Positions 16,334-27,928 of a stretch of DNA of 64,000 bases are shown one piece after another; the stretch's first letter is position 1; each line of letters starts with the position of its first letter. The notes beneath the pieces were generated by a model. It was not told the origin of the DNA. It made no database searches and was given only the letters and a program-made list of their open reading frames with translations. Source of the DNA: Nordella sp. HKS 07. Its GTDB lineage: Bacteria; Pseudomonadota; Alphaproteobacteria; Rhizobiales; Aestuariivirgaceae. Location of the stretch: positions 5,474,001 to 5,538,000 of the forward strand of contig NZ_CP049258.1 in the NCBI RefSeq assembly GCF_011046735.1. The letters are read 5' to 3'. The translations under genes and the position numbers were made by a program.

Positions 16334-18079
16334 ATGTGCAGTGATCTCAACAATTTTGGTGAAGTGAAAGAAAGGTCGAGAGCTACGAGAAATCACATCA
16401 ATCTGCTTGCCGGTGTTGTGGCGAGTGTTTCGCTCTGGGCGCTGCTCGGTGTTGCGGCGCCAGCGCCGGCGCTGGCACAGGAGCCGAAGCCCAATATCGT
16501 CGTCATCATGGGCGATGATGTGGGCTGGTTCAATATCGGCGCCTATCACCGGGGCATCATGTCCGGGAAGACGCCCAATCTCGACAAACTGGCTTCTCAG
16601 GGCATGATGTTCACTGACTATTATGCCGAGGCGAGTTGCACGGCGGGCCGGGCGAGCTTCATTACCGGAGAGATCCCGTTGCGCACAGGCTTGACGACCG
16701 TCGGCCAGGCCGGCGCGGATGTGGGCATGCCCGACAAGGCCGCAACCCTCGCCTCCGCCCTCAAAGCTCAGGGTTACGCCACCGGCCAGTTCGGCAAGAA
16801 CCATCTCGGTGATTTGAACAAGTTTCTGCCGACACTGCATGGATTCGATGAATTCTTTGGCTATCTCTATCATCTCGACGCGATGTCGGACCCCTATTGG
16901 TATTCGTTCCCGGATGACCAGTCGTACCGCGACAAAATCGGTCCGCGCGATTTGCTGCATACATATGCGACCGATACGGACGACCCGACCGTGCAGCCGC
17001 GTTGGGGAAAAATCGGGAAGCAGAGGATCATCGACGAGGGACCGCTGGCACCGTACCCCGACATGACCAACGTGCCGAACATGCACGATATCACGCCGAA
17101 GGCAAAATACGACATGACGACCTTCGACGAAGTGCTGGTCAAGGCCTCGTGCGACTTCATGGACAAAGCCAAAACCGCCGGCAAACCGTTCTTTGTCTGG
17201 CACAATACGACGCGCATGCATGTCTGGACGTTTCTGTCGCCCAAATACCAGGCCCTCATGAACAGCCAGACCAATTACGGCCTCGAGGAAGCCGGTATGG
17301 CGCAGATGGATGACAATGTCGGCGCCATCATGAAATGCATCGAGGATGCGGGCGAGGCCAACAACACCATCGTCGTCTTCACCACCGACAATGGGGCGGA
17401 GGTGTTTACCTGGCCCGATGGCGGCATGACCCCGTTCAAGGGCACCAAGGGTACCGTGATGGAAGGCGGCTTCCGGGCACCGGCCATCATCCGCTGGCCG
17501 GGCAAGGTCAAGCCGGGCACGGTTGAGAACGGCATTTTTTCGGCGCTGGATTGGTTTCCGACGCTGACGGCGGCAGCCGGCAACCCCGACATTACCGATC
17601 AGTTGCTGAAGGGTGTGCAGTTGGGGGATCGGACCTACAAGAACCACCTCGACGGCTATAACCAGCTCGACCTGCTGCAGGGGAAAGGGCCGTCGACGCG
17701 CCATGAATTTTTCTACTTTGGCGGCCCGCAATTGGGTGCTGTTCGTATCGATGACTTCAAGTACCAGTTCTATCAGCAGCCGCAGGGTTGGCCTGGCGCG
17801 AAAGTGACGACGGACATGCCGACGATGGTCAATATCCGCCAGGATCCGTTCGAGCGGACGCCATCGATCAGCGAGCAAAGTCTCAACGATCTCGGCGGAG
17901 GCTACATGAACGACTTCTACGCCCGCGAGTTCTGGCGCTTCGTCAGCGTTCAGCAGGAAGTCGCGAAGCTGGCCCTCACGGCGATCGACTACCCGCCGAT
18001 GCAGGATCCGGCTTCCTTCAACCTTGAAGCCGTGAAGAGGCAGATCGACGCGGCGATCAAGAACAAGCCAGGCAACTAG
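16334..18079 (+). CDS. Periplasmic type I arylsulfatase
   Basis: The 581-residue product starts at an ATG with AACGGAGG upstream. A signal peptide or anchor (LLAGVVASVSLWALLGVA, cut near ALA|QEP) precedes the sulfatase domain. Metal ligands lie in IVVIMGDDVGW (Asp61/Asp62), and the formylglycine-forming cysteine is Cys102 in SCTAGR, the C-x-A-x-R form of the C-x-P/A-x-R motif. FGKNHLGD, FFVWHNTTRMH and VVFTTDNGAE carry further conserved active-site Lys, His, Asp and Asn residues. It hydrolyses sulfate esters; the substrate is unknown. No sulfatase-modifying enzyme gene is nearby, so activation would depend on one elsewhere. A terminator follows the stop. Confidence 0.92.
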   Translation: MCSDLNNFGEVKERSRATRNHINLLAGVVASVSLWALLGVAAPAPALAQEPKPNIVVIMGDDVGWFNIGAYHRGIMSGKTPNLDKLASQGMMFTDYYAEASCTAGRASFITGEIPLRTGLTTVGQAGADVGMPDKAATLASALKAQGYATGQFGKNHLGDLNKFLPTLHGFDEFFGYLYHLDAMSDPYWYSFPDDQSYRDKIGPRDLLHTYATDTDDPTVQPRWGKIGKQRIIDEGPLAPYPDMTNVPNMHDITPKAKYDMTTFDEVLVKASCDFMDKAKTAGKPFFVWHNTTRMHVWTFLSPKYQALMNSQTNYGLEEAGMAQMDDNVGAIMKCIEDAGEANNTIVVFTTDNGAEVFTWPDGGMTPFKGTKGTVMEGGFRAPAIIRWPGKVKPGTVENGIFSALDWFPTLTAAAGNPDITDQLLKGVQLGDRTYKNHLDGYNQLDLLQGKGPSTRHEFFYFGGPQLGAVRIDDFKYQFYQQPQGWPGAKVTTDMPTMVNIRQDPFERTPSISEQSLNDLGGGYMNDFYAREFWRFVSVQQEVAKLALTAIDYPPMQDPASFNLEAVKRQIDAAIKNKPGN

Positions 18080-22869: not shown

Positions 22870-22946
22870 GCGGGTGTAGCTCAGTTGGTTAGAGCGTCGG
22901 CCTGTCACGCCGAAGGTCGCGGGTTCGAGCCCCGTCACTCGCGCCA
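22870..22946 (+). tRNA. tRNA-Asp (anticodon GTC)
   Basis: The acceptor GCGGGTG pairs with CACTCGC (one G-T wobble), and GCCA ends the gene. D arm TAGCTCAGTTGGTTAGAGC, anticodon loop CTGTCAC, and T arm GCGGGTTCGAGCCCCGTC are canonical. The total is 77 bases. As I recall it, related genomes often place tRNA-Val, tRNA-Asp and nuoA close together; here about 15.7 kb separates the two tRNAs. Confidence 0.97.
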
Positions 22947-23249: not shown

Positions 23250-24656
23250 ATGACTGTGGACAAGCGTGACGGCAACAGTTTGTTGCCGAGTACGGATGAC
23301 CCACCTCTCCCCTTGGCCGGACCTACCTCGCCGAAATTCGAGCGTCGACTGGCGATTGTGGCGTGCCTCCTGCCGGCCGCTTACTTTCTTCTATCCTCGC
23401 TGTTCGCGCTCATCTACTTCAAGACATACGCGTCAGAGCTTCCGCAATTCCTTAGATATGTCTTAGCACCCGGTTTGATCGGGGTAGCATTTCTCGCTTG
23501 CGCCTATGCGCTGCCCCGCCGTCTAAGTCTATCGATAGGAACGAGCGGCATAGCCGTGATCGCAGCCCTGTTTGCTTTCGAGACCTGGCAGACCATAAAG
23601 CTGTATGCGAGTCTTCTTGGCATGATCGGATATGCCGGCGGTGCGCAGATCCCGAGCGTCGATGCCAATAACGGCTTGCCACCGGGCTATACGGTAAAAG
23701 CACTCAACCGGGTTCTTAAGCCTGCAACGCTGCCTGAAGCCGTGCTGAGCGGTGTGCCCCATTCGCAGGTGTTCATGTGTTCTCGCGACGGCAAGCCGGT
23801 GACCTACACGGCCGACCGTTATGGTTTCAACAACCCGGATAGCGTCTACGACAAGCCGATCAGCACTGTTGTCCTTGGCGATTCATTCATAGAAGGCTAC
23901 TGCCTGGAACCAGGCAAGGACACGGTCAGTGTGCTGCGTGGCACCTTGCCCGATAGCGTTGGTATTGCGACGCGCGGCAACGGCCCCCTCATGGAACTGG
24001 CCGCGTTGGGCAGATTCGGAAAAGAACTCCGTCCACGTTTTGTCGTGATGGCGTTCTTCGAGGGCAATGACTGGGAGAATCTGCAGGTCGAGCTTGAATT
24101 CCCGTGGCTGCGGCAGGCTTTGTCCGAGAATACTGAGTTCGGGCAAACAACCATCCCTCCGGCAACGCTCGCCGAGATGGATGGTGTTATCAATGGCTGG
24201 CGTGCTACCGAAGTGAAACCCCTTGATGTTCTGCGCCGTACATGGCTCGTCCGGAACTTCTTTGCCCTGCGCCAGGTGAGTTCTGAGCTTGGGATCGCTT
24301 ACCCGAAGGTTTTCCGGGCGCAGCCCGAATATGTCGACATATTGCGCAAGGCCGCCAAGATCACTGAGAGTTGGGGTGGCGAGCTACTGGTTCTCTATAT
24401 CCCGCAGGCTGCCCGATATGACGGAATGATCTCACACGAGTTCGTCTATGACCCATTGCGCAATCGTGTCCGGAAGGCTGCGGCAGAAGCCGGCGTGGAA
24501 GTCATCGATCTTGCGGAAATATTCAAGAAACGGAAGGATGTCCAAAGTCTGTACGCCTCTGACTGGCATTTCAGCGAAGAGGGGGCACGTGTTGCGGCCC
24601 AGGCGATTATCGATCGGCTGAGACAGCCGATGGCTGCATATCACTCCGCGAAATGA
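23250..24656 (+). CDS. Membrane protein with SGNH-hydrolase-like periplasmic domain
   Basis: The ATG at 23250 (GGAGATGGAG upstream) gives 468 residues; an in-frame TTG at 23211 is less likely. Three N-terminal helices (around residues 35-120) anchor the protein. The remainder resembles an SGNH/GDSL esterase: block I VVLGDSFIEGYC with the nucleophilic Ser, NGPLMELAALGRFGKELRPR, a block III-like FFEGNDWENL, and block V SDWHFSEEGARVAA with the Asp-x-x-His pair. Such proteins can add or remove acyl groups on surface glycans. It opens a four-gene co-directional unit with SxtJ, DUF5989 and carbamoyltransferase genes. Confidence 0.78.
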   Translation: MTVDKRDGNSLLPSTDDPPLPLAGPTSPKFERRLAIVACLLPAAYFLLSSLFALIYFKTYASELPQFLRYVLAPGLIGVAFLACAYALPRRLSLSIGTSGIAVIAALFAFETWQTIKLYASLLGMIGYAGGAQIPSVDANNGLPPGYTVKALNRVLKPATLPEAVLSGVPHSQVFMCSRDGKPVTYTADRYGFNNPDSVYDKPISTVVLGDSFIEGYCLEPGKDTVSVLRGTLPDSVGIATRGNGPLMELAALGRFGKELRPRFVVMAFFEGNDWENLQVELEFPWLRQALSENTEFGQTTIPPATLAEMDGVINGWRATEVKPLDVLRRTWLVRNFFALRQVSSELGIAYPKVFRAQPEYVDILRKAAKITESWGGELLVLYIPQAARYDGMISHEFVYDPLRNRVRKAAAEAGVEVIDLAEIFKKRKDVQSLYASDWHFSEEGARVAAQAIIDRLRQPMAAYHSAK

Positions 24657-24776
24657 TGGAAAGGCGTTTGGTCGCGACTGCACGACCAAGCGGAGGGACT
24701 CAACAGGCAAATCACGGATCCGGATCGTCGAACTGTTGCAGACTTTCGGTGCAACCAGCTCTCGGGACTGAGGAAC

Positions 24777-25199
24777 ATGACTGAAAATTTCCATGAGCGG
24801 ATCGAAGCGGACGAAGAGGTAAAGCTCCCGTCCGAGAGATCCTTCGCGATGGTGTTCGCGACCGTGTTCGCTCTCATCGGACTTATCCCGCTGCTGCATG
24901 GGGGCAGCATCCGCTGGTGGTCGATTGTGATCGGCGCAGTATTCCTGATCATCGGCCTCACTGTTCCCTCGATCCTGCGGCCGCTCAACAAGCTGTGGAT
25001 GCGGTTTGGCCTTCTGCTTCATCGCATCGTCAATCCCCTCGTTCTGGGGCTGATGTTCTGGGGCATACTCGTTCCCGTCGGCTACCTCATACGGATGTTC
25101 TCGGGCAAGCTTCTCGCCTCCGAGCTCAAAGATGACAGTTATTGGATACGTCGCAAGCCGCCCGGGCCCGATCCCGAGTCTGTGCGCAATCAGTTCTAG
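24777..25199 (+). CDS. SxtJ-family membrane protein
   Basis: This 140-residue product begins MTENFHERIEADEEVKLPSE and has membrane segments FAMVFATVFALIGLIPLLHG, WWSIVIGAVFLIIGLTVPSI and VLGLMFWGILVPVGYLIRMF. It ends with the conserved-looking SYWIRRKPPGPDPESVRNQF. This matches SxtJ-like proteins named after the cyanobacterial saxitoxin cluster, which occur widely next to carbamoyltransferases. The biochemical role is unproven. The ATG follows GGAAC; the DUF5989 gene begins 9 bp after the stop. Confidence 0.82.
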   Translation: MTENFHERIEADEEVKLPSERSFAMVFATVFALIGLIPLLHGGSIRWWSIVIGAVFLIIGLTVPSILRPLNKLWMRFGLLLHRIVNPLVLGLMFWGILVPVGYLIRMFSGKLLASELKDDSYWIRRKPPGPDPESVRNQF

Positions 25200-25208
25200 G
25201 AGGAAGCC

Positions 25209-25358
25209 ATGTCGTTCATTGGGGAATTGCTCGCTTTCACACGTGCCCGCAAGAAGGTCTGGCTCCTGCCGATGCTCATTTTCCTGGGCCTGTTCGGCGG
25301 ACTTTTGATCCTGGCCAAGGGCAGCGCCGTGGCGCCTTTCATTTATACGATCTTCTAG
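25209..25358 (+). CDS. DUF5989 family single-helix membrane protein
   Basis: The 49-residue product starts at an ATG with TAGGAGGAAGCC upstream and reads MSFIGELLAFTRARKKVWLL, then one helix (PMLIFLGLFGGLLILAKGSA) and VAPFIYTIF. The sequence FxRxRKKxWLLP and the terminal APFIYTIF are typical of DUF5989 microproteins encoded between SxtJ and carbamoyltransferase genes. It lies 9 bp after the SxtJ gene and 8 bp before the carbamoyltransferase start. Role unknown; it may be a membrane adaptor. Confidence 0.85.
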   Translation: MSFIGELLAFTRARKKVWLLPMLIFLGLFGGLLILAKGSAVAPFIYTIF

Positions 25359-25366
25359 GGCGCTCC

Positions 25367-27202
25367 ATGCGTATCCTCGGGATATCGGCCTACTATCACG
25401 ACAGCGCGGCGGCGATCGTTGCCGATGGCAAGATCATTTGCGCCGCGCAGGAGGAACGCTTTACGCGGAAGAAGCATGATGCGCGCTTTCCGGCCCATGC
25501 AATAGCCTATTGCCTGGAGGAAGCGCGCGCCAAACTGGGCGAGATCGACTATGTCGCTTTCTATGACAAGCCATTTCTCAAATTCGAACGCATTCTCGAA
25601 ACCTACCTTGCCTATGCGCCGCGGGGCTTCACGTCCTTTCGCATGGCCATGCCGGTGTGGCTCAGGGAGAAACTGTTCCAGAAGAGCTTGCTGAAGAAGC
25701 ACCTTCGTGAAATCGATCCGGATTTCGATCCGGAAGGCAAGCTGCTCTTCACCGAGCACCATCTGTCACATGCCGCAAGCGCCTTTTTCCCTTCACCCTT
25801 TGATCAGGCCGTGGTCCTCACGATGGATGGTGTTGGCGAATGGGCAACGACATCGGCCGGCGTGGGGCAGGGCACCGATCTCGCCATCGAGCGCGAGATA
25901 CATTTTCCGCATTCGCTGGGGCTGCTTTATTCGGCCTTCACTTACTATACGGGGTTCAAGGTCAATTCCGGCGAATACAAGGTCATGGGGCTGGCGCCCT
26001 ATGGCGAGCCGAAATATGTGGACGTCATTCGCGATAACCTGATCGACATAAGGTCCGATGGCTCCTACAGGCTGAATCTCGATTATTTCGACTACTGCAC
26101 CGGGCTGCGCATGACGAATGAGCGTTTCGACGCCCTGTTCGGCGGGCCGCCGCGCAAGAGTGAAGACCGCCTCACGCAGCGCGAGATGGATCTTGCCGCC
26201 TCGGTCCAGGTGGTGCTCGAGGAGGTCGTCATCAAGATGACGCGTTCCCTGCGCGATGCATATGGGATCGACAATCTCTGCCTCGCCGGCGGTGTGGCGC
26301 TCAATTGCGTCGCCAATGGCAAGATCCTGCGCGACGGACATTTCAAGAAGATCTGGATCCAACCTGCCGCGGGCGATGCCGGTGGCGCCCTCGGCGCGGC
26401 TCTTGCGGCCTATCACGGCATCGCCAAGAAGCCGCGGATCAACTCGAACGGCGCGGATCTCATGCAGGGCGCCTATCTGGGTCCCAGTTTCACGCAGGAC
26501 GAGATCGAAAAGCGTCTTCGCGATCAGAAAGCCGTCTTCGAGACGGTATCCGATGACGAGGTGATCGATCTTTCGGTGAAGGCTCTTGCGCAGGAGAATG
26601 CTGTCGGCTGGTTCCAGGGGCGGATGGAATTCGGGCCGCGAGCTTTGGGCGCGCGATCGATTCTGGGCGATGCACGCTCGCCCTCGATGCAGTCGCTGCT
26701 CAATCTCAAGGTCAAATACCGCGAATCCTTCCGACCCTTCGCCCCGTCGGTCCTGCGCGAAGACGTGGCAGGTTGGTTCGAGCTCGACGAAGACAGCCCC
26801 TATATGCTGCTCGTGGCCGATGTCCGGGAAGAGCGCCGCCGCAGCATGTCGGCGCACGAGAATGCGCTCTTCGGCATAGAGAAGCTCAACATCCCGCGAT
26901 CGGAGATTCCGGCGGTCACTCATATCGACTATTCGGCGCGTATACAGACGGTGAGCGCGGATACGAACCCGCGCTATCATGCACTGCTTTCGGCCTTCAA
27001 GCGCGAGACGGGATGTCCCGTTCTCGTCAATACGAGCTTCAATGTACGCGGCGAGCCGCTGGTCTGCACCCCGGAGGACGCGTTCCGCTGCTTCATGGGG
27101 ACCGAAATCGAGCTTCTGGTCGCGGGTAACTGCGTGCTCCGCAAGGAACGGCAGGATCCGGCGCTCAAGCGCAATTACGAAAGCGCATTCGAGCTGGATT
27201 GA
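25367..27202 (+). CDS. NodU/CmcH-type carbamoyltransferase
   Basis: The ATG at 25367 begins MRILGISAYYHDSAAAIVAD and gives 611 residues. An open frame extends upstream to 25142 but overlaps the two preceding genes and is not used. The N-terminal Kae1-like domain has AAQEERFTRKKHDARFP, HHLSHAASAFFPSPF, LTMDGVGEWATTSAG and LAGGVALNCVANGKI. The C-terminal YrdC-like domain carries FGPRALGARSILGDARSP and YRESFRPFAPSVL. These enzymes transfer a carbamoyl group from carbamoyl phosphate through an adenylate, onto sugars or secondary metabolites (NodU on Nod factor, TobZ, CmcH). The acceptor here is unknown; the membrane partners suggest an envelope glycan. Confidence 0.93.
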   Translation: MRILGISAYYHDSAAAIVADGKIICAAQEERFTRKKHDARFPAHAIAYCLEEARAKLGEIDYVAFYDKPFLKFERILETYLAYAPRGFTSFRMAMPVWLREKLFQKSLLKKHLREIDPDFDPEGKLLFTEHHLSHAASAFFPSPFDQAVVLTMDGVGEWATTSAGVGQGTDLAIEREIHFPHSLGLLYSAFTYYTGFKVNSGEYKVMGLAPYGEPKYVDVIRDNLIDIRSDGSYRLNLDYFDYCTGLRMTNERFDALFGGPPRKSEDRLTQREMDLAASVQVVLEEVVIKMTRSLRDAYGIDNLCLAGGVALNCVANGKILRDGHFKKIWIQPAAGDAGGALGAALAAYHGIAKKPRINSNGADLMQGAYLGPSFTQDEIEKRLRDQKAVFETVSDDEVIDLSVKALAQENAVGWFQGRMEFGPRALGARSILGDARSPSMQSLLNLKVKYRESFRPFAPSVLREDVAGWFELDEDSPYMLLVADVREERRRSMSAHENALFGIEKLNIPRSEIPAVTHIDYSARIQTVSADTNPRYHALLSAFKRETGCPVLVNTSFNVRGEPLVCTPEDAFRCFMGTEIELLVAGNCVLRKERQDPALKRNYESAFELD

Positions 27203-27290: not shown

Positions 27291-27623
27291 TCATCGCAGT
27301 GAAGGATGCTTCGGATGGATCGGAAAACCATCGGCGCCCACCTCGGTCGAGTAGCCTCGCACCTCGATCTGCTGTGCGCGCCCGTCGTGGCAGTCCTTGC
27401 ACAGGCTGGTGAATGGGCCGGCGAAGAAGGTCTCGGGCCTGAGCTTCTGCGATGGGCTGACGTGGTGGCAGACGGCGGCGGCTACAATCCGGCCCCTAAC
27501 CTTACACCACTCGCACAGGGGCTGCTTCCGGAACTGGCTTTCCCTCGTCTTCGCCCAGGCCGAGGTCTTGTAGAGCTTGCGATATTGGGCAGCTTCAGGA
27601 CTGCGACGGTCTGATCTGTTCAA
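27291..27623 (-). CDS. HNH endonuclease, phage-type
   Basis: The 110-residue product has the HNH zinc-finger nuclease layout. An N-terminal YRKLYKTSAWAKTRESQF is followed by PLCEWCKVRGR (CxxC), VCHHVSPSQ with the catalytic His pair, SLCKDCHDGRA (second CxxC and His), and the tail GYSTEVGADGFPIHPKHP. Such proteins usually lie beside terminase genes in prophages and assist DNA packaging. Here no terminase or portal gene follows, so it looks like a stranded prophage gene. It is convergent with the carbamoyltransferase. Confidence 0.86.
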   Translation of the reverse strand: MNRSDRRSPEAAQYRKLYKTSAWAKTRESQFRKQPLCEWCKVRGRIVAAAVCHHVSPSQKLRPETFFAGPFTSLCKDCHDGRAQQIEVRGYSTEVGADGFPIHPKHPSLR

Positions 27624-27928
27624 TTAAGTCCCTGATCGTTAGTGGACATGGGTAGAGCGATCCTACTCTTGTTGTCATTACCGGCATCGTCAGGCTCTGT
27701 CTGGTACGTCACAACCGGTTGTGCTATCCTAAAGCATTCGGGCAGTGAGTCGCCGTTATTGCAGAGGGCGAGGAGAAGAAGCCCTATGGGAGATCGTCAG
27801 AGCTAGGACGCCCACAGCTGCCGCGCTTCACCCTCTGAGCTACGCCCCGAGTGGCCGCTCGATATCGGAAGATATATTGCCCAATAGTTGGTTTGCTGAT
27901 CGAATGTCGCTACCAGTAGGAGACAGCG
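27624..27928. other. Intergenic region with a tRNA-5'-half-like sequence
   Basis: No gene is seen. The minus strand at about 27819-27846 reads GGGGCGTAGCTCAGAGGG followed by TGAAGCGCGG, which resembles an acceptor plus D arm (TAGCTCAGAGGG fits box A). No anticodon arm or TTCGA T arm follows, so it is at most a fragment. Confidence 0.3.

Follow-up and report, generated by a model that had tools for sequence, protein, structure and literature searches.

Within the window, a stretch of 64,000 nucleotides from the genome of Nordella sp. HKS 07 (contig NZ_CP049258.1, positions 5,474,001 to 5,538,000), four genes on the plus strand form a cassette that we read, with moderate confidence, as a carbamoyl-tyrosine relay that works without an MBOAT protein. 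The genes encode, in this order, an SGNH protein with three N-terminal membrane helices and an SGNH domain predicted to be periplasmic (468 aa; 23250..24656), a membrane protein of the SxtJ family (140 aa; 24777..25199), a DUF5989 microprotein (49 aa; 25209..25358) and an O-carbamoyltransferase (CT) of the NodU/TobZ/GdmN family (611 aa; 25367..27202). The first-pass annotation had placed four co-directional genes here with gaps of 120, 9 and 8 bp, and this layout was confirmed. In the proposed relay the carbamoyl group would pass from the CT, with the help of SxtJ, to a tyrosine of DUF5989, then to the SGNH protein and finally to an acceptor. Among the titles listed from the open-licence PubMed Central literature none proposes a carbamoyl-tyrosine relay, and those of the three papers that contain both DltX and carbamoyltransferase point to other subjects.

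The relay would start in the cytosol, where the CT, like its family, should make carbamoyl-adenylate from carbamoyl phosphate and ATP. Docked on SxtJ, our candidate for a dock or conduit because an SxtJ protein is found fused to a CT elsewhere, the CT would then load Tyr46 of DUF5989 as an aryl carbamate, a step to which the tail motif of DUF5989 and the linkage of the genes also point. The DUF5989 tail lies outside by the positive-inside rule and would present the carbamoyl-tyrosine to the SGNH protein, which would take it on Ser212; this hand-over is proposed because of the motif, the linkage and the match of compartments. As the last transferase, with a carbamoyl-serine intermediate, the SGNH protein would pass the group to a hydroxyl of a putative acceptor, a glycan, lipid or small molecule that is exported or linked to the membrane. 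The tail of about 13 residues after the DUF5989 helix could, speculatively, thread into SxtJ, and the relay would run downhill, as an excerpt of PMC12148441 argues for acyl-tyrosine relays.

The tyrosine tail of DUF5989

The window DUF5989 protein matches its Pfam family, PF19451, over residues 1-49 of 49 (78.5 bits, cut-off 27) and consists of a basic N-terminal segment, one membrane helix (17-35) and a C-terminal motif, the hexapeptide FIYTIF, whose codons (25338..25355, plus strand; Tyr46 at 25344-25346) stand directly before the stop. In our first set, 68 DUF5989 loci including the window, the fourth-last residue of all 69 DUF5989 proteins is a tyrosine; W18, P21 and Y46 (window numbering) are invariant in the same 69, and the typical end is APFIYT[LI]F-COOH. 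The strict form FxYxxF is present in 60 of the 69, the window's included, and in the other nine Y or L replaces one F. A wider profile scan of contigs confirmed at least 567 relatives, of which the best 80 form a named set that partly overlaps the genomes of the first; the stop follows the motif directly in 80/80 of these, the search having imposed the letters and not the stop.

DltX and the MBOAT acyltransferases share a C-terminal FXYXXF as their acyl-shuttle motif: the motif tyrosine of PatA is auto-acetylated and the acetyl-tyrosine hexapeptide feeds the SGNH protein PatB, and D-Ala is passed by DltX to DltD, likewise an SGNH protein (excerpt of PMC12148441). This motif changes two parts of the first-pass annotation, which had left both small membrane proteins without a role and had the SGNH protein acting on acyl groups of the carbamoylated molecule. 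We replace the former by a tyrosine shuttle of the DltX/MBOAT kind in the DUF5989 tail, and the latter by the role of last transferase. The sequences suggest that DUF5989 serves as the carbamoyl carrier and the SGNH protein as the last transferase of the relay.

Among 10,167 open reading frames (ORFs) from 74 sources, mostly chosen for their DUF5989, 62 end in FxYxxF, namely 60 DUF5989 proteins and two MBOATs, and the named set, with 5,810 ORFs, has 83, comprising 80 DUF5989 proteins, one MBOAT (L121) and two others; a further group of loci gave three, an MBOAT (L236) and two ORFs of L229 with 55 and 107 aa. At the DNA level, by a hand count in 398 genomes of the host's phylum, PFIYxxF followed by a stop was found 98 times, spread over 82 genomes, and the reversed pattern 21 times. 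Thirty of these loci were followed up, nearest kin first and thus not at random. In 22 an ORF of at least 30 aa ends at the pattern, 12 of them DUF5989, 10 MBOAT and none other as judged by profiles built in this analysis, and in the remaining eight no ORF of that length ends there. The other 68 places include many known DUF5989 genes, one L229 protein and one chance case. A second PFIYTIF-stop in the window genome (5700467) lies in a 79-aa ORF that overlaps the start of a cytochrome-like gene on the other strand, and was judged to be chance. At L121 (392-5908) a cassette in the order SGNH-SxtJ-DUF5989-CT is followed directly by an MBOAT gene whose product ends in FLYFQF, and two tyrosine-shuttle systems adjoin at this locus.

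The module, its enzymes and its surroundings

SxtJ, DUF5989 and the CT form a real module. In the sample of 398 genomes SxtJ was found in 47 (44 above the Pfam cut-off), DUF5989 in 58 (56 above) and both in 46 (hypergeometric 8e-48); this bears out the earlier claim that the trio recurs, and the random co-occurrence named there as the outcome that would speak against it is not seen. The genes are also close neighbors, with 41/48 SxtJ genes at most 3 kb from a DUF5989 gene and 56/63 above-cut-off DUF5989 genes at most 3 kb from one of the 65 best CT matches. Four of the seven DUF5989 genes without a near CT sit either on a contig of less than 8 kb or at most 250 bp from a contig start (G115, G108, G199 and G061), and that of G292 is interrupted by a stop. 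The best 80 of the at least 567 relatives include many Pelagibacteraceae, other alpha-, beta- and gammaproteobacteria and two acidobacterial records. By script labels, the window's gene order recurs in ten other loci. ORF lengths were taken from the earliest start codon, and N-termini may be overlong. A search for DUF5989 on plasmids or phages gave no match, a 49-residue query being weak for such a search, and no mention of DUF5989 or of "SxtJ family membrane protein" was found in the open-licence PubMed Central literature. Four genes flanking the triad of SxtJ, DUF5989 and CT, probably in one genus (L085, L090, L091 and L093, assigned through gene lengths), match LptF/LptG.

The CT matches PF02543 with 364.7 bits and PF16861 with 243.4 bits, and the two domains, Carbam_trans_N and Carbam_trans_C, span its full length as in O-carbamoyltransferases of the NodU/TobZ type; the best match to a solved carbamoyltransferase has an E value of 1.2e-93 (phmmer). 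A tree of 93 CTs, made by a quick method and having 26 open forks and some long branches, unites the CTs of the triads as a single subfamily (the label changes five times, against 21.4 in shuffles) and groups the window CT with those of L044 and L047, from the same genus, among the triad CTs; the tree labels were based on length, and the triad CT of L164 fell under 'second'. At L092 an SxtJ protein is fused to the C-terminus of the CT (PF19588 at 616-709 of 738, 23.7 bits, cut-off 24.4), and L094 encodes a protein of the same length, 73% identical, with a match to the SxtJ profile. The alignment of this fusion with unpaired rows (A3) looked misaligned and was kept solely for that identity. L107 encodes a fusion of an SGNH domain with a more distant CT. 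The window genome has a second CT, split into two ORFs of 259 and 277 aa (L116, G000:C1:4373764-4374799), and neither SxtJ nor DUF5989 was found in its 19.5-kb stretch.

The window SxtJ belongs to its family by PF19588 (33.5 bits, cut-off 24.4) and has three hydrophobic segments (22-40, 49-67 and 87-105). W74 is present in 63/63 aligned proteins, which share a conserved C-terminal tail, SYW..R....P.....QF.

The SGNH protein matches ALGX in Pfam (32.1 bits, cut-off 26.5) and falls slightly under the cut-off for Lipase_GDSL_2 (32.5 bits, cut-off 32.9), and its profile matches AlgJ and AlgX. A structure model (mean pLDDT, the predicted local distance difference test score, 84.7) predicts an SGNH fold preceded by three long N-terminal helices (28-55, 64-87 and 90-130), with CgnD as the nearest fold match, and fold and blocks I, II, III and V together place the protein in the SGNH superfamily. 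The predicted catalytic Ser212 (in GDSF; codon 23883..23885, plus strand) and His440 (in SDWHF; codon 24567..24569, plus strand) are invariant in alignment A4, with Ser in 76/79 and His in 75/79 SGNH rows; Asn273 is conserved and the predicted Gly243 is present. Early motif filters for SGNH proteins were too strict and lost true members of the family, and an unfiltered profile superseded them.

SGNH genes are concentrated around the triad, where they make up 37/465 genes within 3 kb compared to 2/564 farther away (Fisher 1.9e-11, kinship uncorrected), which supports the four-gene grouping of the first-pass annotation. When 126 of 127 flank proteins were tallied by Pfam (loci L070, L071, L073, L099, L104, L107-L109, L111 and L116 omitted), Lipase_GDSL_2 was the commonest family (21/126), followed by methyltransferases (10/126). 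Five SGNH proteins, encoded at most 3.3 kb from the triad at L057, L134, L137, L139 and L159, are 40-43% identical to that of the window, triad loci being the only ones searched. An N-terminal membrane helix is predicted in 71/79 SGNH proteins of triad loci, and of the eight without one several are cut or distant genes; these data support a membrane or envelope setting, as proposed earlier. At L137, L139 and L183 a second CT-like gene of 520-524 aa (by Pfam at L137 only) overlaps the cassette SGNH gene or lies right next to it.

The host genome is a single contig of 7.18 Mb. Upstream of the cassette are a mechanosensitive channel gene (Pfam) and a tRNA-Asp gene (22870..22946, plus strand, ARAGORN), which has no part in the mechanism; downstream, about 2.4 kb of small ORFs are followed by a run of genes that we take to be nuo genes. 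The cassette has a G+C content of 0.55-0.59, slightly below the 0.61 of the window, and the triad is located elsewhere in the genomes of congeners. The idea of an island at the tRNA-Asp gene was pursued through a direct repeat of the tRNA end, which was not found among the 20 of 24 families listed. Positions 27830-27847 are 83% complementary to bases close to the tRNA-Asp start (22872-22889) and may be a tRNA remnant, and the small-ORF region (27.3-29.6 kb) includes a possible HNH gene (27291-27623, below the Pfam cut-off). A sulfatase (PF00884, 168 bits) that seems to carry a signal sequence is encoded farther away, at 16334-18079.

Related loci and rival explanations

Six loci without a nearby DUF5989 (L107, L229, L230, L231, L232 and L245) are nested in the triad CT clade, as is a seventh, L228, in whose genome DUF5989 is found at the end of another contig. 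All six encode a small protein whose fourth-last residue is a tyrosine. An SGNH gene lies at most 2.3 kb away in five of them, and the sixth, L107, has the SGNH-CT fusion. The small protein of L230 is a peptide ending in KKKPSKHNDSSIYPMF (DSSIYPMF), a Lys-rich peptide of L245 ends in the same DSSIYPMF and the peptide of L231, found only by reading the gap by eye, ends in SSIYPMH. At L107 the small protein ends in KKKDPDIYPFF and lies 4 kb from the CT, at L229 a 107-aa protein ends in SPFIYVMF and has no membrane helix in its printed sequence, and L232, with the tail FVYPVI, is a weaker case. The SGNH protein nearest to the CT is without a membrane helix in 5/5 loci (L229-L232 and L245), and a further SGNH gene of L229, which is cut and lies at a distance of 3.5 kb, encodes one. 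The location of the SGNH protein thus matches the type of carrier, and the relay predicts that both ends of the hand-over lie in the same compartment.

At 14 loci with CTs outside the clade a loose tail pattern gave one ORF, the MBOAT of L236 (gaps unread by eye); within the clade the same pattern also yields chance hits, with two more short ORFs in L230 and one each in L107, L229 and L245. The small proteins of L229 and L232 gave no BLASTP alignment with each other, the 107-aa protein of L229 has a match in 1/100 genomes, its own, and the soluble SGNH protein of L245 has matches in 5/259 genomes, including its own and that of L231. L230, L231 and L245 have in common a CT, a helix-less SGNH protein and a peptide rich in Lys, about 31-34 aa long, with the end SSIYPM[FH]. 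A PF14518 redox protein of 703-713 aa is encoded as well at L230 and L231. The three loci are possibly an undescribed peptide-natural-product or carrier system.

A wider form of the relay, which we put forward only tentatively and regard as doubtful, is that CTs of the triad clade never carbamoylate the final acceptor directly and instead load the tail tyrosine of a small protein, from which a matching SGNH protein transfers the group. The carriers would be membrane DUF5989 proteins or soluble peptides, rich in Lys, with the end SSIYPM[FH]; the SGNH proteins would be periplasmic or cytosolic accordingly. If this were true, the adjacent SGNH 'esterases', SxtL-like and CgnD-like ones among them, would in fact transfer carbamoyl, and DUF5989 would be a second, independent recruitment of a tyrosine shuttle without MBOAT.

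Several observations weigh against the relay as drawn for the window. The crossing of the membrane is its weak step, with the access of a cytosolic CT to a tail on the outside left unexplained. No fully conserved His was found in the SxtJ alignment and no catalytic residue is evident, and a profile search found no solved relative of SxtJ; the cassette therefore has no obvious tunnel to a periplasmic tyrosine. DUF5989 matches no DltX or MBOAT model (the window protein at E 0.1; two others gave no DltX at E 1). Pfam includes a DltX profile, and in Pfam the window protein matches only PF19451 at E 0.1. A comparison of the DUF5989 and MBOAT-tail profiles aligns seven columns (VAPFIYT) with a probability of 50%; we therefore claim likeness of the motif and not descent, and the idea that DUF5989 is homologous to the last MBOAT helix was dropped. 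Nor is the motif exclusive to DUF5989 and MBOATs, as the chance PFIYTIF-stop of the window genome illustrates: the motif-tailed ORFs of L129 (330 aa) and L152 (231 aa) match neither in any of the tests applied, L229 carries its 55-aa motif-tailed ORF besides the 107-aa one, and 68 of the 98 genomic places lie outside the tally and were checked only for G000, G061 and known DUF5989 genes.

The company of the genes is also looser than a strict four-part machine would have it. The DUF5989 genes of G305 (a single-contig genome) and of contig 33 of G191 look truly solitary, without a CT nearby, nine loci have DUF5989 and CT without an adjacent SxtJ, and L107 has CT and SxtJ without DUF5989. An SGNH gene lies within 2.8 kb in only 24 of the 46 loci that have at least 5 kb on both sides, and within 500 bp in 30 of the 80 named loci. 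Neither the tested flanking genes of the window nor a match to its SGNH protein (E 1e-5) was found when the triad loci of four congeners and of one more genome from the family were searched; the cassette therefore moves and its SGNH partner changes. The SGNH side adds three further points, namely that the presumed block II Gly is kept in 62/79 rows, that CgnD acts as a slow protease according to PMC10070186 and that the SGNH-type SxtL has been proposed to remove carbamoyl (excerpt of PMC2679770).

The absence of an adjacent SGNH gene at many loci would fit a scheme, close to that of the first-pass annotation, in which SxtJ and DUF5989 only hold the cytosolic CT at the membrane for direct carbamoylation of a membrane-linked acceptor, and the SGNH protein works on its own as an esterase or acyltransferase. 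The characterized CTs TobZ and GdmN act directly on their acceptors, a mechanism that agrees with such tethering, as does the CT-SxtJ fusion. Yet tethering leaves unexplained why DUF5989 has an exact C-terminus and an invariant tyrosine equal to the acyl-shuttle motif, why SGNH genes are enriched and why the location of the SGNH protein tracks the kind of small protein, and we consider it unlikely, while still the strongest of the rivals. The tail motif is equally unexplained if the CT were to add and the SGNH protein to remove the carbamoyl, as a temporary group that might, for example, protect the molecule during export, with DUF5989 as an accessory. The presumed block II Gly is retained, as in hydrolases, and decarbamoylation has been proposed, on the basis of homology, for SxtL, the GDSL-type gene in the saxitoxin cluster (excerpt of PMC2679770); the SGNH-CT fusion of L107 would, however, join both activities in one chain, and this removal scheme seems to us quite improbable. 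Least probable of all, and very much so, is that the small Tyr-tailed proteins are themselves the substrates, as in crocagin, and that the DUF5989 tail is modified or released as a product. DUF5989 is a conserved membrane protein without the leader-core build of a precursor peptide, and its tail is the same as the MBOAT shuttle. No further tailoring enzyme is encoded in the window's cassette. A peptide product fits the soluble loci better than the window.

If the carbamoyl-tyrosine relay is correct, DUF5989 would gain a function and SxtJ a role, acyl-tyrosine relays would not be tied to MBOAT or AT3 proteins and carbamoyl would join the groups that bacteria can place outside the membrane. The gap in annotation, which spans alpha-, beta- and gammaproteobacteria, SAR11 and acidobacteria, is thereby reduced to a question about a single residue, the carbamoylation of Tyr46.

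Comparison with known systems

A published arrangement of similar gene content is the saxitoxin series sxtI-sxtJ-sxtK-sxtL, where the genes for a carbamoyltransferase and SxtJ are followed in a row by one of 165 bp and one of GDSL type (excerpt of PMC2679770). By the published gene table these are the same kinds of genes as in the cassette, with the SGNH gene first in the cassette and last in sxt. As sxtI-L lies in the saxitoxin cluster, at least one relative has a small molecule as its published product, which bears on the outcome that the first-pass annotation itself named as speaking against its model, a link to a soluble small molecule instead of the envelope. The crocagin cluster, with the precursor CgnA, the CT CgnI and the SGNH-fold protein CgnD, is linked to the window through the modelled fold of its SGNH protein, but it is a soluble pathway to a ribosomally synthesized and post-translationally modified peptide. 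With NodU, CmcH, TobZ and GdmN the window CT shares both domains over the full length, while the triad CT subfamily differs in being accompanied by Tyr-tailed small proteins and often by SGNH proteins.

The likeness to the pairs PatA-PatB and AlgI-AlgJ/AlgX lies in the tails, mostly GVAPFIYF[QR]F in MBOATs (as in GVAPFIYFQF) and AVAPFIYT[LI]F in DUF5989 (as in AVAPFIYTLF), and in the match of the SGNH profile to AlgJ and AlgX. In contrast to these pairs, the putative carrier is separate from the loader, the transferred group would be carbamoyl, the residues after the tyrosine are T[LI] and not F[QR] and the presumed block II Gly is kept; in PatB that Gly is replaced by Ser or Asn (excerpt of PMC12148441). 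The Dlt system (the MBOAT DltB, DltX and DltD) likewise joins a membrane microprotein ending in FXYXXF with an SGNH partner (excerpts of PMC12148441 and PMC11035591), whereas the cassette has neither an MBOAT nor a carrier protein such as DltC, and its proposed loader is the CT with SxtJ. The cassette has the C-terminal FXYXXF with an invariant tyrosine and the SGNH protein with predicted catalytic Ser and His that mark the MBOAT-SGNH and Dlt relays, and none of its four proteins matches MBOAT at E 0.1. We therefore do not file it as a member of that family of relays, but as a cassette that probably works like one.

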